Source: Acidobacteriota bacterium (lineage in GTDB: Bacteria > Acidobacteriota > Terriglobia > Acidiferrales > UBA7541). Taken from it: DNA of 51,012 nt. Positions 20,570 to 44,465 of the stretch are shown here, piece after piece. The DNA lies in contig QHYR01000266.1 in assembly GCA_003223315.1 (NCBI GenBank), forward strand, positions 1 to 51,012. The letters run 5' to 3'. The notes below the pieces were generated by a model. That model was given only the letters and a program-made list of their open reading frames with translations, was not told the DNA's origin and did not search any database. The translations under genes and the position numbers were made by a program. The stretch's first letter is position 1, and each line of letters opens with the position of its first letter.

Positions 20570-21001
20570 GTGAAGAATAAGCACATCGTCGTTCTTCTAG
20601 GGCTGGGATTTCTCGTCGGTATGGCCCCGCTTTTTGCACATCATGGCAACTCCAGCTTCGACATCGATAAGAAGCTCACCATGAAGGCGACGGTCACAGA
20701 ATGGTTCTGGGCCAATCCACATTGTTTCCTGAAATTCGATATAACGGATGAAAAAGGAAACGTCGTCCATTGGGTTGCCGAAACGAGTAATCCCTCGGAC
20801 ATGGCCAATCTCGGGTGGAGCAAGCAAATCTTCAAGCCCGGCGACCACGTTACCGTTACTTTGCAGCCAGTCAAGAATGGCGCGCCCATTGGCCGTGTCA
20901 TGCAGGTTGTGCTCGCGAATGGCCAGACCTTGGGCACGCGGATCGCAGGGGTATTCGGGCCCGAGGTCGACGCGCCCAAGCCGGCAGATTCTTCCAGGTA
21001 G
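20570..21001 (+). CDS. DUF6152 family secreted protein with predicted N-terminal His-His (copy 1)
   Basis: The 143-residue protein starts at GTG 20570, five bases after AGGAGGT. Residues 1-23 are a signal peptide ending PLFA, so signal peptidase I would leave HHGNSSF as the mature N-terminus (H24, H25). The mature domain of about 110 residues reads as beta strands. It has EWFWANPHCFLKFDI (H51), EKGNVVHWVAE (H67) and GWSKQIFKPGDHVTV, typical of DUF6152. The family has no described function that I know of. An exposed N-terminal His plus other conserved His residues resembles copper sites of CopC or LPMO type, which is hypothesis. It is followed by a larger secreted partner at 21158. Confidence 0.85.
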   Translation: MKNKHIVVLLGLGFLVGMAPLFAHHGNSSFDIDKKLTMKATVTEWFWANPHCFLKFDITDEKGNVVHWVAETSNPSDMANLGWSKQIFKPGDHVTVTLQPVKNGAPIGRVMQVVLANGQTLGTRIAGVFGPEVDAPKPADSSR

Positions 21002-21157: not shown

Positions 21158-22006
21158 ATGTCCAAGCGATCGGTGACTCCAGTCCTTCCTGTGGCGGCTC
21201 TGCTGTGCTTTTCCGTCACCTCCAGCGCCGCAACTCAGGCGCAGCAAGCGGGAGCCGCACAAAAGCAGAATGCGGCACCCACGGCGCTTTGGAATAGCCC
21301 GAGCATTGCGCCCAAGCAGCCGCAGCCGTCTTTCGGCCCCCGGCCGCGCCACGACATCAGCGGAACTTGGGATGCCTTCGCGGCCGGAATCCAGCCGACT
21401 GGAGTTAAGAGCCATGCGCCTTTTACGGAGTGGGGCGAAAAAATGGCCAATACCTACAAGCCTGGCGATGGCCCTCGAAAGGTCGCACTCGGCCTCATCA
21501 ATGATCCTTTGGACGACTGCGATCCGGCAGGTTTCCCCCGCAATTTGTTTTTCGAACTCCGTCCCTTTAAGGTCGCTCAGACCTCCGATCAGGTGCTCAT
21601 GTTGTACGAATATCAGAAGGTGTGGCGTGCCATCTGGACCGATGGCCGAGAATTGCCCAAGGATCCCGAATCCAGATGGTACGGCTACTCCGTTGGCCAT
21701 TGGCAGGATGACTACACGTTTGTCGTGGACACCGTCGGATTGGACGAAAGAACTTGGCTCGATAACGCCGGCGACCCGCACAGTGCCGATATGCGCGTCG
21801 AGGAAACCTACCGTCGCGTAGATCAGGATACGCTGGAGCTCACCGTGAAGGTCGACGACCCGAAGGCGTATAAGGAACCTTGGTTCGGCCTCAACAAATT
21901 CATTTTGCACCGACAGCCGTCCAGTTTCGATATTCGCGAGATGATCTGCGCGCCGTCAGAGGCGGAAGAATACCGGAAGGAGGTCGCCGAACCCGCTACG
22001 AAGTAG
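21158..22006 (+). CDS. Secreted partner protein of DUF6152, family B (copy 1)
   Basis: The start is ATG 21158, seven bases after a perfect AGGAGGT (21144-21150); the frame is open from 21044 but without such a site. The 282-residue protein has a signal peptide (about 1-28). After a Gln/Ala/Pro-rich linker come HDISGTW (calycin-like G-x-W entry), CDPAGFPRN (C121), LYEYQKVWRAIWTDGRELP, WYGYSVGHWQDDYTFVVDT (H181), DPHSADMRVEE, LTVKVDDPKAY and MICAPSEAEEY (C264). These blocks recur in 42126-42995 and 43105-43989. It is always next to a DUF6152 gene in this window, so the two probably act together outside the cytoplasm. No known catalytic motif is recognised. Confidence 0.8.
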   Translation: MSKRSVTPVLPVAALLCFSVTSSAATQAQQAGAAQKQNAAPTALWNSPSIAPKQPQPSFGPRPRHDISGTWDAFAAGIQPTGVKSHAPFTEWGEKMANTYKPGDGPRKVALGLINDPLDDCDPAGFPRNLFFELRPFKVAQTSDQVLMLYEYQKVWRAIWTDGRELPKDPESRWYGYSVGHWQDDYTFVVDTVGLDERTWLDNAGDPHSADMRVEETYRRVDQDTLELTVKVDDPKAYKEPWFGLNKFILHRQPSSFDIREMICAPSEAEEYRKEVAEPATK

Positions 22007-38320: not shown

Positions 38321-39655
38321 TTAGGAATGCTCGAGCGCTTTCATCTCAAAGGGAATGTCTGGCCGTAGGCGCGAAGCGAGAAAGGCGCCCAGGATCAGGA
38401 GCAGTACGGAAGTGGCAAAGGGAACGGCCCAGCTTCCCGTGTGGTCCACCAGGTAGCCGAAAATCGAGGGCGAAACGATGCCCGCAAACGCGAACCCGAA
38501 ATTCATCATGCCGCTCGCCGTGCCCGCGAACCTCGGCGCGATATCCATGGGCACCGACCAGATGGGGCCCACGATCAGTTCAGCAAAAAAGAAGGCCAGC
38601 GACAGCGATACCGCCGCGAGTCGAAGATTGTGCAGCAGGATTACCGGCATCATGAAAATGAAGGCGCCCAGGAATCCGGCAATGATCACCGAGCGACGCG
38701 CCACCACCAGGCTTCCCGTCTTGTGCAGCAGTCTGTCGCTGAGCACGCCACCCACCGTATCGCCCACAATCCCCGCCGACAACACGCCCGCCGAGTACAT
38801 TGCTGAGGATTGCAAATTCAAATGGTAGTTTTCAAAAAAGAAGCCGGGAATCCAGCTCAGAAAAAGCCAAAGCACCCAGCCGTAGCAAAAATCGACCGCC
38901 GTGACGGGCAGTATTCGCCGCGCTAACTGCACCCAGGGTATGGCCGCGCGCCTTTGGGTGCGCTGGCCGGGCAGCTCCGCCAAATCGGCAGCGGTGATCG
39001 TGGGGTGCTCGCGGGGATCGTTGCGAAAAAACCAGGCCCACAGAAGAACCCAGGCGGAGCTCACTATGCCCAAAATTGCAAACGACCCGCGCCATGTCAG
39101 CAGCACTGCCATCCAGGCGATCAGCGGAGGCGCCAGGGCATTTCCGATACGCGAAAAGGAATGCGTAACTCCTTGGGCGAAGCCCCAGCGGCTTTCCGGT
39201 ATCCAGCTGCTCATCGCCCGAGTCGCGGTCGGGAAAGTGGCGCTCTCGCCGAAACCCAACGCCAGCCGAACGGCAAATAGCGCCAGAAAGCCGTTGACAG
39301 CGCCCGTAAGCGCCGTGGCTACGGCCACGATACCGCAAGAGACGCAGAGCACCACCCGCGCGCCCCAGCGGTCACCGATCCATCCGCCGATCAGTTGAAA
39401 GATTGCGTACGGGATGGCAAATGCCGAAAACACCAGCCCCAGCTGCGTGTTACTAAGCCGCAGATCCGTTTTGATGAGAGGCGCTACCCCGGATATGGCC
39501 ACCCGCACGACGAACAGAACGAGGTACAGCAGGCAGAGCAGCCCCAGAACGACTCGGGGCGCGCTTAGCCCACGTGATCGCACGCGCGGCTTCTCCGTTG
39601 CTGTTTCCGGAGTCTGGATGGCAATTCTCTGGTTACGGCCTGGGCGCAACTTCAT
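38321..39655 (-). CDS. MFS transporter, anion:cation symporter-like
   Basis: From ATG 39655 the protein has 444 residues with 12 predicted membrane helices, the standard MFS size. The longer frame to 39955 overlaps the dioxygenase and its extra 100 residues read as noise. Motif A of the family is present as GGWIGDRWGARVVL, and the mid-loop is RNDPREHPTITAADLAEL, like phthalate/hexuronate-type ACS permeases. The start lies 23 nt inside the dioxygenase gene, in another frame, so the two are translationally linked. Uptake of the dioxygenase substrate or export of its product is the obvious inference. Confidence 0.88.
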   Translation of the reverse strand: MKLRPGRNQRIAIQTPETATEKPRVRSRGLSAPRVVLGLLCLLYLVLFVVRVAISGVAPLIKTDLRLSNTQLGLVFSAFAIPYAIFQLIGGWIGDRWGARVVLCVSCGIVAVATALTGAVNGFLALFAVRLALGFGESATFPTATRAMSSWIPESRWGFAQGVTHSFSRIGNALAPPLIAWMAVLLTWRGSFAILGIVSSAWVLLWAWFFRNDPREHPTITAADLAELPGQRTQRRAAIPWVQLARRILPVTAVDFCYGWVLWLFLSWIPGFFFENYHLNLQSSAMYSAGVLSAGIVGDTVGGVLSDRLLHKTGSLVVARRSVIIAGFLGAFIFMMPVILLHNLRLAAVSLSLAFFFAELIVGPIWSVPMDIAPRFAGTASGMMNFGFAFAGIVSPSIFGYLVDHTGSWAVPFATSVLLLILGAFLASRLRPDIPFEMKALEHS

Positions 39656-40517
39656 CCCGGATTTGCGTCCGGTGCATGACCCGGCGCGAAGCGGCGTCAA
39701 AGGAATCGCGCCGGTGCATCGTGCAGCGGTTATCCCATAAAACGAGGTCGCCCGGACGCCACTGGTGTCCCCAGGCGAGTTCCGCGCGCGTGGCGTCCGC
39801 CCACAATTCGTTGAGCAACGATTCCGATTCCACGAGGGGCAAGCCGGCGACATAGGCGTTGCGCCGGCGGCCCAGGTAGAGGGCCCGCCGCCGCGTCTCA
39901 GGATGAGTGCAGACGAGCGGATGATAGGTGCCGGGCGAGGTCCTGGGATCGTCAACGGCCGTTACACCCTGCCGCAAATAGCCTCCGCTGTTGTAGGTGC
40001 CGTCGTGTTTCAGCGATAACCCTTCGATCCGGCGCTTGAGCTCCTCCGGCAAGCCCTCGTACGCCGCATACATATTATTGAAATAGGTGTCGCCTCCGGA
40101 GCGTGGCACGTCCAATGCGTAAAGTATGCTGGCTTTGGGCGGCACCTCCAGGTAAGACATGTCCGTGTGCCAGGTTGCCTCGCCCGCTCCCAGGCTTCCT
40201 ATGGGTACGCCTTTTTCGACCACATTGGACACCACGTAGATTTCCGGATGGCCTTCGACGAATCGCCGCCCTGATTCTTGAACGGGCGCCCAATCCAGGT
40301 CGCCGAACCTCTTGCTGAAAGCGGCCAGATCCTCATCGTTAAGTTCTTGGCCGCGAACCAGCAGCACTGAGTGATCGTGCCAGGCCCCGAGGATGACCGC
40401 AAAATCGCGATCGTCGATCGTCCTCAAATCCGCGTTGCGAATTTCCGCGCCCAAAGCGCCGCCCGTGGGGACAACGGTAATCCCGGCTTTGCCGGTCTCT
40501 AATGGCGAAGTGTGCAT
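39633..40517 (-). CDS. TauD/TfdA-family 2-oxoglutarate-dependent dioxygenase
   Basis: The 294-residue non-haem Fe(II) enzyme has the expected facial triad: the HxD in ATWHTDMSYLEVPPKAS and the distal His in LVLWDNRCTMHRRD. The 2-oxoglutarate-binding Arg lies about ten residues after that distal His (DSFDAASRRVMHRTQI). Members oxidise sulfonates, aryloxyacetates or other small acids, and the substrate cannot be read. It is followed by an overlapping MFS transporter, a common uptake-plus-oxidation pairing. The upstream gap to 40823 shows only weak promoter-like boxes. Confidence 0.9.
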   Translation of the reverse strand: MHTSPLETGKAGITVVPTGGALGAEIRNADLRTIDDRDFAVILGAWHDHSVLLVRGQELNDEDLAAFSKRFGDLDWAPVQESGRRFVEGHPEIYVVSNVVEKGVPIGSLGAGEATWHTDMSYLEVPPKASILYALDVPRSGGDTYFNNMYAAYEGLPEELKRRIEGLSLKHDGTYNSGGYLRQGVTAVDDPRTSPGTYHPLVCTHPETRRRALYLGRRRNAYVAGLPLVESESLLNELWADATRAELAWGHQWRPGDLVLWDNRCTMHRRDSFDAASRRVMHRTQIRDEVAPRP

Positions 40518-41526: not shown

Positions 41527-41985
41527 ATGAAAAGAAAGCTGCTGGTGGCGTTCGTCTTGGGCGTTGGTCTTTTAGCTGTTTGTGGATCTGTGTTAGCACA
41601 TCACGGAAATGTGGCGTACGAGAACAAGATATCTGAATTCAAGCAAGTCACAGTGACGAAATTTGCGTGGGCCAATCCTCACAGCCTGGTTGAATTCGAT
41701 GTGAAGGATGAAAAAGGCAACGTCGTCCATTGGACCGCCGAAACGGCCAGTCCCGAGGCGCTGAAGCTGATTGGATGGAACAAGAGTTCCCTGCAGCCGG
41801 GGGACGTAATCACCATCTATATGTACGCCGCTAAAACGGGCCTGCCCGCCGGGCGTCTGAATAAGATCGTGCTCGCCGACGGCTCTGTCTTGCACGATAC
41901 CCAGCTTGGGGGCGACGCAGGGAACAAGAGCGGTTACGGCCCCGACGCCGGTGGGAACAGGGGCAACGGCAACGAAGCTAAGTAG
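41527..41985 (+). CDS. DUF6152 family secreted protein with predicted N-terminal His-His (copy 2)
   Basis: From ATG 41527, behind GAGGTG, the protein has 152 residues; the longer frame from 41431 adds 32 residues before a textbook signal peptide. That signal ends CGSVLA, so the mature protein would start HHGNVAYE (H25, H26). FAWANPHSLVEFDVK (H52) and EKGNVVHWTAE (H68) match copy 1, as do GWNKSSLQPGDVITI and PAGRLNKIVLADGSVL. The C-terminus is a Gly/Asn-rich tail of about 25 residues not seen in the others. It heads a cluster A-B-B-A with three more genes. Metal binding is hypothesis. Confidence 0.85.
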   Translation: MKRKLLVAFVLGVGLLAVCGSVLAHHGNVAYENKISEFKQVTVTKFAWANPHSLVEFDVKDEKGNVVHWTAETASPEALKLIGWNKSSLQPGDVITIYMYAAKTGLPAGRLNKIVLADGSVLHDTQLGGDAGNKSGYGPDAGGNRGNGNEAK

Positions 41986-42125
41986 GGAAATCGTCGCTGA
42001 AGCCCGGTGGCCGCGGACCGGCGAACAATTTCGGGCCGGCGCAGCAGTTTTTTGCGCAGACGGTCCTGTTCTTCAAGGGTCGGCCTTCAGATGTTCCGTC
42101 GTTTAAGTCAAGGAGGGCAGTTGAA

Positions 42126-42995
42126 ATGCGAAACCGGGTCGTCGAAGTAATCGTTGCTTTGCTGGCCGTACTGGTCCTTTCGTCGGCTTTAATGGCTCAA
42201 GAACGAGCACCTCGAGCAGTGCCGCCGGGTTATGTCACCGCGGGAGTCCCGAAGATGCCGAATCCGCCCGGCCCCGCTCCCAAGCATGATCTGACTGGCG
42301 CCTGGGTGGGACCCATAATGACAGTAATGGGCCCTTACCCTGATATGACTCCGGCGGGCAAGGCAGTCTTCAACCTCAATATGCCGGTTCCCGAAGCAGG
42401 GCGGCAGGCGCCGGACGCCCCGCAAAATGTGGCGGCCACAAACGACCCCTTCATGATCTGTGATCCTCTTGGCGTTCCGCGCGACCTTTTGAACCACGCC
42501 ATCAGCATGCGAGGAGGAATCGTATTCCAGCCGGCAGGGAACCGCATGCTTATGCTGTTTGAGCAACAGCGAGTGTGGCGAGAAGTCTGGATGGACGGGC
42601 GGCAACTCCCCGCGAAGGTAGACGCGCCGGGAGCGCCCGATTCCAGATTTTACGGATATTCCGTGGGCCACTGGGATGGGGACAATACGTTCGTGATCGA
42701 TACGGCAGGCTTGGATCCCCGAACCTGGATCGATGAGAGAGGACATCCGCACACCAAGGACGCGCACCTGCAGGAGCGCTGGACGCGGCTGGACCAGTAC
42801 AACCTAGAGGCGACGGTAACGGTTGACGATTCGAAGTTCTATACAAAGCCCTTTCAATTAATGAAGACGAATTATTACTGGATGAAGGATCAGGAGTTCG
42901 AAGAGACGCTGTGTGTACCGTCGGAGGCCATCGAGTATCGAGACAAACTGGCCAAGCCGTCTGGTTGGGCTCCTGGGGACGCGCCCGCCAAATAA
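42126..42995 (+). CDS. Secreted partner protein of DUF6152, family B (copy 2)
   Basis: The 289-residue protein starts at ATG 42126 after AAGGAGG. Signal peptide 1-24 ends ALMAQ. The blocks shared with the other two copies are present: KHDLTGAW (57-60 region), MICDPLGVPRD (C112), LFEQQRVWREVWMDGRQLP, FYGYSVGHWDGDNTFVIDT (H182), HPHTKDAHLQERW, TVTVDDSKFYT and TLCVPSEAIEY (C263). The two Cys are invariant in all three copies and could form a disulfide. The rest reads as alternating beta strands. No known enzyme motif is seen. It lies 140 nt after the DUF6152 gene and 109 nt before a second B copy. Confidence 0.8.
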   Translation: MRNRVVEVIVALLAVLVLSSALMAQERAPRAVPPGYVTAGVPKMPNPPGPAPKHDLTGAWVGPIMTVMGPYPDMTPAGKAVFNLNMPVPEAGRQAPDAPQNVAATNDPFMICDPLGVPRDLLNHAISMRGGIVFQPAGNRMLMLFEQQRVWREVWMDGRQLPAKVDAPGAPDSRFYGYSVGHWDGDNTFVIDTAGLDPRTWIDERGHPHTKDAHLQERWTRLDQYNLEATVTVDDSKFYTKPFQLMKTNYYWMKDQEFEETLCVPSEAIEYRDKLAKPSGWAPGDAPAK

Positions 42996-43104
42996 GCAGC
43001 CCGTGATCCGTCTTCCGCCAAAAGGCTACCAACAGGATGAGCTTTTCGCGGTTAACAAAGTCCACGCGGCTTTTGCCGCCTAAAAAAGTCGGAGGACTCT
43101 CGAA

Positions 43105-43989
43105 ATGCGAAATGCGTTCATAGGCGCCATCCTTGGTCTAGCGGCGATGCTTTGTTTTTCTTCAGTCGCTAGCGCTCAAACCGCCCAGTCCCAACCTAAA
43201 CAGGCAAATGAGGCACGTTCTCCTTGGAAATACTACCCTATGGACAGGGCCGTTGGAGACGGTGGGCCGGCGCCGAAGCGCGATTTGACTGGGACCTGGG
43301 CAGGACCGGGCTCGGGCGCAGCGGTTCCCAGGGGTATAAACGCGCAAGACCCCACCGCGCCACCTCTCACTCCTTTGGGGAAACAGTTGTACGATCAGAA
43401 CAAGCCCATCGGCAAATATAGTCCCGCCGGCACCAACGATCCTCATAACCGATATTGTGATCCGTTTGGATTTCCGCAGAACATGACCAACGAAATTCGC
43501 GGAATAACGATCACGACGCTGCCTAATCGGACGTTCATACTGATCCAGTACATGGATGTCTGGCGCGAAATCTGGACGGACGGCCGGGCGCTGCCGGCCA
43601 CGGTGGGCGGGAGCGGGAAAGACGCACTCGACCCGAGATATAACGGCTACTCGGTGGGCCACTGGGAGGACGACTACACATTTGTCGTGGACACAACCGG
43701 GCTTGACGATACCACCTGGACTACCAAGAACGGGTATCCCCATAGCATAGATGCGCATGTGCAGGAACGCTTCAAGCGGGTCGACAAGAATGATTTGACG
43801 CTGACGATAACCATGGACGACCCGAAACTTTATACCCAGCAATTCTTTCTCGGCGAGGAGCATTTCCGCTGGATTCCCAACCAGCAACTCGATGACTTTA
43901 CTTGTATACCGTCGCAGGTTCAGGAGTACTTGAAGGAGATGGGTGATCCGGCTGGCTTTGATCCCAATGCTCGCTCACAGCGTAGGTAA
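43105..43989 (+). CDS. Secreted partner protein of DUF6152, family B (copy 3)
   Basis: The 294-residue protein starts at ATG 43105 behind GGAGG. Signal peptide 1-24 ends VASAQ. KRDLTGTW, YCDPFGFPQN (C118), IQYMDVWREIWTDGRALP, YNGYSVGHWEDDYTFVVDT (H186), YPHSIDAHVQERFKRVD, TITMDDPKLYT and FTCIPSQVQEY (C267) line up with copies 1 and 2. The 60 residues between the G-x-W and the first Cys differ between copies in length and sequence, so they are likely the variable part. The tandem B-B pair looks like a local duplication that then diverged strongly. Confidence 0.8.
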   Translation: MRNAFIGAILGLAAMLCFSSVASAQTAQSQPKQANEARSPWKYYPMDRAVGDGGPAPKRDLTGTWAGPGSGAAVPRGINAQDPTAPPLTPLGKQLYDQNKPIGKYSPAGTNDPHNRYCDPFGFPQNMTNEIRGITITTLPNRTFILIQYMDVWREIWTDGRALPATVGGSGKDALDPRYNGYSVGHWEDDYTFVVDTTGLDDTTWTTKNGYPHSIDAHVQERFKRVDKNDLTLTITMDDPKLYTQQFFLGEEHFRWIPNQQLDDFTCIPSQVQEYLKEMGDPAGFDPNARSQRR

Positions 43990-44039
43990 GCGCGGGCTGC
44001 CGTGACGGCCGGGCGCGATTTCATAAGCGGAGGTTAAAG

Positions 44040-44465
44040 ATGAAAACGAAACTAGTCATATTGGCATCGATCGCCGGACTCCTGGCTATTTCCTGTCCTA
44101 CGTTCGCTCATCATGGGGCGGCGGCGTACGACATGTCCAAACCAGTCGTGCTGAAAGACGCCGTGATAACCCAATTCGCTTGGATCAATCCCCACCCTCT
44201 GATCAAGGCGGACTATAAAGATGATAAAGGCAACGTCCAACATTGGATCATGGAAATGGGCAGCACGCCGGCGTCTCAGCTAATCGGCTGGTCCAGAACT
44301 TCCCTGAAGCCGGGCGACGTGGTCACTCTTTATGTTTGGCAAGCCAAGACCGGGCTTCCAGTTGGGCGTTTTAACAAGGTCGTTTTCGCCGACGGCAAAG
44401 TAATGAGAGACACTCAGACCGGGGCAGATAACGGAGGCCGAGCGGATACTGGAGTTGGCAGGTGA
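44040..44465 (+). CDS. DUF6152 family secreted protein with predicted N-terminal His-His (copy 3)
   Basis: The 141-residue protein starts at ATG 44040 with GGAGGT upstream. The signal peptide ends SCPTFA and the predicted mature start is HHGAAAYD (H24, H25). FAWINPHPLIKADYK (H52), DKGNVQHWIME (H68), GWSRTSLKPGDVVTL and PVGRFNKVVFADGKVM complete the family pattern. It closes the A-B-B-A cluster 50 nt after the last B gene. The position of the His-His directly after the signal cleavage site is kept in all three copies although the signal peptides themselves are unrelated in sequence. Confidence 0.85.
   Translation: MKTKLVILASIAGLLAISCPTFAHHGAAAYDMSKPVVLKDAVITQFAWINPHPLIKADYKDDKGNVQHWIMEMGSTPASQLIGWSRTSLKPGDVVTLYVWQAKTGLPVGRFNKVVFADGKVMRDTQTGADNGGRADTGVGR

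Follow-up and report, generated by a model that had tools for sequence, protein, structure and literature searches.

DUF6152, an exported protein family with a paired N-terminal histidine and a beta-barrel partner, is a candidate metal-binding system on a predicted OB-fold

The window analysed here, a stretch of 51,012 nucleotides from an Acidobacteriota bacterium, carries three genes for small exported proteins of the family DUF6152 (Pfam PF19649) and three genes for companion secreted proteins of about 290 amino acids (Table 1). The curated Pfam cut-off of 27 bits is exceeded by all three DUF6152 copies as well as by their relatives, and the family is described in Pfam as one of unknown function. 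Predicted signal-peptidase junctions in the three copies are APLFA/HHGNSS (gene at 20570), GSVLA/HHGNVA (41527), and CPTFA/HHGAAA (44040). The companion proteins gave no match to Pfam or NCBIfam. An open reading frame for a TauD-like dioxygenase, assigned by eye, lies on the opposite strand (39633–40517), about 1 kb upstream of the gene cluster at 41527–44465. The literature searched yielded no paper that mentions DUF6152, PF19649, or DUF6644, a second family discussed below. The description of these proteins as an undescribed metalloprotein family, given in a first-pass annotation of the window, is thus fair as a proposal with regard to metal, but the family already has a name in Pfam.

Table 1. 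Features of the window related to DUF6152, and loci of the natural DUF6152–barrel fusions
Feature	Position	Strand	Remarks
DUF6152 copy 1, 143 aa, GTG start	20570..21001	+	ORF; Pfam PF19649, E 5.8e-24, 84.5 bits
Predicted signal peptide of copy 1	20570-20638		mature HHGNSS... starts at 20639
His1-His2 codons, mature N-terminus of copy 1	20639..20644	+	344/345 family-wide
His28 codon, mature copy 1 (NPH motif)	20720..20722	+	345/345
Glu48 codon, mature copy 1	20780..20782	+	337/345; predicted to face His28 from the covariation register
Companion secreted beta-barrel protein 1	21158..22006	+	AlphaFold2 pLDDT 91.7, pTM 0.87
DUF6152 copy 2	41527..41985	+	mature HHGNVA... from 41599; PF19649, E 1.2e-19, 70.6 bits
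Companion secreted beta-barrel protein 2	42126..42995	+	companion profile
Companion secreted beta-barrel protein 3	43105..43989	+	companion profile
DUF6152 copy 3	44040..44465	+	mature HHGAAA... from 44109; PF19649, E 9e-23, 80.6 bits
Fusion loci, part 1			L181, L336, L328, L326, L338, L330, L096, L327, L054, L323, L333
Fusion loci, part 2			L331, L339, L093, L329, L332, L309, L335, L163, L340, L193

Residue conservation was assessed in 345 distinct DUF6152 domains from Acidobacteriota and Proteobacteria, drawn from the genome of the window, its relatives, named genomes, and plasmids. Loci obtained by a scan with His-containing patterns were left out of the unbiased counts, which were made on a profile-only set of 246 domains found without any such pattern. 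The first-pass annotation had placed a His-His-Gly directly after the signal-peptidase site; this holds for the three window copies, and family-wide the His-His pair follows a signal-peptidase-like site in 344 of the 345 domains. The single domain in which His1 and His2 are lacking (L024:2909-3283) is an N-truncated copy that has lost its N-terminal region. Of the two further histidines listed there as invariant among the three copies, that of the NPH motif (His28) is present in 345 of 345 domains. The other, in the HW motif (His44), is common to all three window copies but occurs in only 49 of the 345, and it was rejected as a family ligand. Glu48, Asp8, and Trp45 were found in 337, 315, and 337 domains, respectively. 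The profile-only set gave the same picture: His1, 245; His2, 245; His28, 246; Glu48, 241; Asp8, 217; Trp45, 242; and His44, 46. A divergent member from Cupriavidus lacks Glu48 and retains the His-His pair, Asp8, and the NPH motif. The mature proteins, once aligned, share a mean identity of just 27%. Many of the other near-invariant residues (Pro27, Gly40, Trp45, Gly59, and Gly68) are structural. Judged from these alignments, the His-His pattern is far above chance, and His1, His2, and the NPH histidine show practically no variation in either of the two phyla, nor in the 28 natural fusion proteins.

The residue preceding His1 is mostly Ala (228 of the 246 profile-only domains; Gly in 9 and Ser in 4). 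A signal-peptide check by simple rules (the -3/-1 rule, a hydrophobic core, and a K/R n-region) was passed by 232 of 244 proteins. The signal-peptide sequences themselves vary freely. Since a possible competing A-x-A site is located two residues upstream of the predicted cut in 72 of these 244 proteins, cleavage exactly before His1 is rated as no more than likely. The size of the processed protein is given as 110 residues. Three shortened copies in the genome of the window, L024:2909-3283 (without the N-terminal half), L091:2358-2612, and L092:8899-9219 (both cut short), look like decaying paralogues.

The AlphaFold2 model of mature copy 1, built from 107 sequences, has a mean pLDDT of 89.5, with values of 95–98 across residues 11–100 and a lower confidence (mean 76) in the first ten residues. 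The model comprises strands 13–24, 29–36, and 42–48, a helix at 52–57, and strands 70–78 and 84–91. The predicted fold is an OB-fold, a beta1-beta2-beta3-alpha-beta4-beta5 barrel. Accordingly, OB-folds (Rim1, SSB, PriB, and lysyl-tRNA synthetase) were the top matches of the model in a Foldseek search against PDB (E about 1e-3, TM 0.45–0.5), while CopC and LPMO were absent from the matches. Neither a sequence search against solved structures (best E 0.87) nor a viral structure library, in which the model matched OB-folds only, provided a further lead. The histidine-brace or CopC-like copper site originally suggested for these proteins therefore stands in part. His1 and a second conserved His, as in the LPMO brace, are present, but kinship with CopC or LPMO is ruled out by the predicted OB-fold, whereas CopC and LPMO have an immunoglobulin-like fold. 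The term 'CopC-like' can thus hold for the mechanism at most, with copper itself being a presumed ligand in DUF6152. LPMOs differ in fold as well as in size, and their link to polysaccharides was not seen for DUF6152. Among copper proteins, the periplasmic chaperone CusF is similar in being a small exported OB-fold protein. Its Cu(I) is bound in the interior of the barrel, where two Met, one His, and a Trp act as ligands, and, unlike DUF6152, it is not known to have an N-terminal-His site.

Covariation was analysed in 344 sequences after removal of low-entropy columns. Direct couplings seen at positions 1, 2, 27, 28, and 68 before this removal were set aside, since they arose artificially from columns without variation. 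The couplings 29–49, 30–46, 33–47, and 34–44 define the register of strands beta2 and beta3, in which residue 28 faces residues 48–50, so that His28 would be positioned opposite Glu48. Within the N-terminal arm, residue 7 was coupled with residue 30 in 38 of 40 bootstraps and residue 6 with residue 23 in 25 of 40. These couplings suggest that the His1-His2 arm packs near His28 and Glu48; this evidence is indirect, and part of it may stem from subfamily structure. Taken together, the 7–30 coupling and the register make a His/His/Glu(Asp) site plausible.

The same conservation could have a purely structural cause. His-His and NPH would then serve folding, or signal-peptide cleavage and docking of the barrel, with no metal involved. 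The metal site is, after all, one that we infer, and many other near-invariant residues of the family are structural. An invariant pair of histidines at an exposed N-terminus would, however, be unusual in a structural role, and the signal peptides themselves vary freely. Moreover, the conserved polar residues are all classic ligands, and three of them are placed at the same end of the OB barrel. We regard the structural explanation as improbable.

The companion barrel is an obligate partner of DUF6152. The two genes are adjacent at about 90% of loci: the companion profile places a barrel gene no more than 1.5 kb away in 118 cases out of 127 DUF6152 genes, on the same strand in 110 of them. Of the 76 DUF6152 domains in the genome of the window, 68 are accompanied by a barrel on the same strand, and the median distance between the domains is 113 bp. 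Among 61 relatives, 17 genomes encode both proteins, one encodes DUF6152 only, one encodes the barrel only, and 42 encode neither. In 28 natural proteins the two domains are fused. DUF6152 always comes first in these fusions, with His-His at the mature start in 28 of 28, which is what a requirement for a free N-terminus would predict. Long open frames at DUF6152 matches in one further genome (G052) were not accepted as fusions, being mostly just reading frames that extend upstream of the start. The nearest folds to the barrel model in PDB are of the CRABP/FABP/lipocalin type, a weak similarity (E 3e-3, target TM 0.5); a search against PDB sequences gave no match.

N-terminal-His metal sites as such are known. 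Signal strapping has revealed four families of N-terminal-His proteins, DUF4198, DUF6702, Ang-1, and Ang-2, for which binding of Ni or Cu has been demonstrated and two of which are joined to membrane permeases (PMC12537917). Ang-1 and Ang-2, tied to HupE/UreJ, bind Cu at about 60–70 nM (PMC12537917), which makes an N-terminal-His domain joined to a metal permease a proven arrangement. DUF6152, which is not mentioned in the main text of that paper, likewise has His as mature residue 1 after a signal peptide, along with further conserved potential ligands. Its N-terminal-His signature is stronger than those of DUF4198 and DUF6702, both metal-binding families, in which the N-terminal His is conserved to 79% and 65%, respectively (PMC12537917). 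Where these families start with one His, DUF6152 starts with His-His; it also has another invariant His further along the chain, is partnered by a beta-barrel, and reaches very large copy numbers. The beta-sandwich of Ang-1 is immunoglobulin-like (PMC12537917), in contrast to the OB-fold predicted for DUF6152. To our knowledge, the OB-fold as scaffold, the pairing with a barrel, the fusion proteins, and the expansion in copy number are new.

The distribution of DUF6152 is highly uneven. The genome of the window (4.3 Mb in 381 contigs, 91% complete) contains 75 matches. Genomes of the same genus contain 31–100 copies, the latter number in Acidobacteria gp2 AA82. In other families of the class the distribution is patchy, with anything from none to over 67 copies. 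Copy numbers are also high in Gammaproteobacteria fen_1219 (68 in 3.9 Mb), a marine gammaproteobacterium (75 in 2.2 Mb), and Proteobacteria SB0676_bin_28 (150 in 3.9 Mb). An even draw across the phylum yielded any DUF6152 in only 12 of 149 genomes, and the family was not found in phage records. DUF6152 and the barrel thus reach 40–150 copies per 2–6 Mb genome in Acidobacteriota and Proteobacteria, beside relatives with none.

Recurrent neighbours of DUF6152 genes include OmpA/Oar-type TonB-like barrels, NHL propellers, proteins with a metallo-beta-lactamase fold, and amidohydrolases; copper genes (ATPases, multicopper oxidases) were not recognised among them. Amidohydrolase and cytochrome c genes form catabolic surroundings in the genome of the window; on plasmids of sphingomonads, such surroundings include genes for monooxygenases, TauD, and beta-oxidation. 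On one Sphingobium plasmid (L279), TauD and monooxygenases flank the DUF6152–barrel module. A plasmid of Croceibacterium atlanticum (L276:8503-10139) carries two DUF6152 genes and one barrel gene between genes for G8-domain proteins and a TonB-dependent receptor.

Such numbers and surroundings raise the question of a catalytic copper. DUF6152–barrel modules could be secreted mono-copper oxidases or oxygenases, with a small hydrophobic substrate bound in the barrel and with substrates that vary between paralogues. The 40–150 diverged copies per genome have the appearance of substrate diversification, the barrel is similar to proteins that bind small ligands (CRABP, lipocalins), the two domains are fused in 28 proteins, and the loci lie among catabolic genes. 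Since a carrier needs no 150 versions, copy number gives a substrate-linked or catalytic role more weight than it would have from the sequence data. An activity of the module is putative, however, and we know of no precedent for N-terminal-His oxygenases on an OB-fold. Among the related N-terminal-His proteins DUF4198, DUF6702, Ang-1, and Ang-2, oxidase activity, where reported, was not substantial by comparison with LPMOs (PMC12537917 for Ang-1 and Ang-2). On balance, catalysis appears unlikely. In its fullest form, the proposal is a long shot: a new class of histidine-brace-like copper site on an OB-fold would act jointly with the ligand-binding barrel in secreted mono-copper enzymes, diversified into 40–150 versions per genome, a copy number on a par with that of the largest paralogous nutrient systems known.

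Genes for the membrane protein DUF6644, usually in tandem pairs, are located beside DUF6152 at several low-copy loci (G006, G030, G028, G102, and G165) and on plasmids of Cupriavidus (4 bp apart), Novosphingobium, and Sphingobium. All six DUF6644 matches in the genome of the window are on contigs with DUF6152, within about 7 kb. The contigs concerned are only 4 of about 60 with DUF6152, and in expanded genomes the majority of DUF6152 loci lack DUF6644. The family has an invariant His (63 of 63), an invariant Lys (63 of 63), and a near-invariant Trp. The Pfam CopD model (PF05425) matched a DUF6644 gene from the genome of the window with E 1.6e-4 and 24 bits, below the cut-off of 32.1, and hhalign gave probabilities of about 43–46% for CopD and HemJ. 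An exported N-terminal-His protein beside a membrane protein is reminiscent of CopC/CopD and of the YcnJ-type CopC–CopD fusion. DUF6644 stands as a family of its own, distinct from CopD, with short four-helix members that usually come in pairs. Its role as a CopD/HemJ-like membrane partner of DUF6152 is plausible, not established.

Rather than storing metal, the His-His start might reach into a partner, for instance into the haem or metal centre of a membrane protein such as DUF6644, in the way the N-terminal residue of the OB-fold TIMPs reaches into metalloproteases. An OB-fold with an exposed invariant N-terminus, the flexible arm suggested by the low model confidence of the first ten residues, and the invariant His and Lys of DUF6644, as in HemJ-type haem proteins, would all fit, but the scarcity of DUF6644 in expanded genomes and the covariation that ties the arm to DUF6152's own beta1 and beta2 make this docking doubtful.

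With its near-universal His-His start and a barrel partner that travels with it, DUF6152 is a strong candidate for a new metal-binding system. We consider it fairly probable that the conserved residues bind metal of some kind. The reading that we prefer, to which we assign a probability of about 55%, is a periplasmic module for a transition metal, probably copper, on a new scaffold and mainly with a carrier role. The protein would be exported as an OB-fold with its N-terminus exposed by processing. The amine and imidazole of His1, together with His2, His28, and Glu48 or Asp8, would form a transition-metal site, most likely for copper and carrier-like rather than catalytic. DUF6152 and the exported calycin-like beta-barrel would make up a two-part periplasmic or outer-membrane module, and at some loci the DUF6644 four-helix pair may act as the inner-membrane partner, as CopC serves CopD. 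The 75–150 diverged copies per genome, not obviously needed by a carrier, count against this reading, as do the lack of recognised copper genes among the recurrent neighbours, the weak kinship of DUF6644 with CopD, and the loss of Glu48 in the Cupriavidus member.

If the site is real, exposed N-terminal-His metal sites would occur on a third kind of scaffold, the OB-fold, and the motif would not be tied to the immunoglobulin-like fold. It would also give a function to a family of soil Acidobacteriota and Proteobacteria whose copy number, as high as 150 per genome, represents an investment otherwise without explanation.
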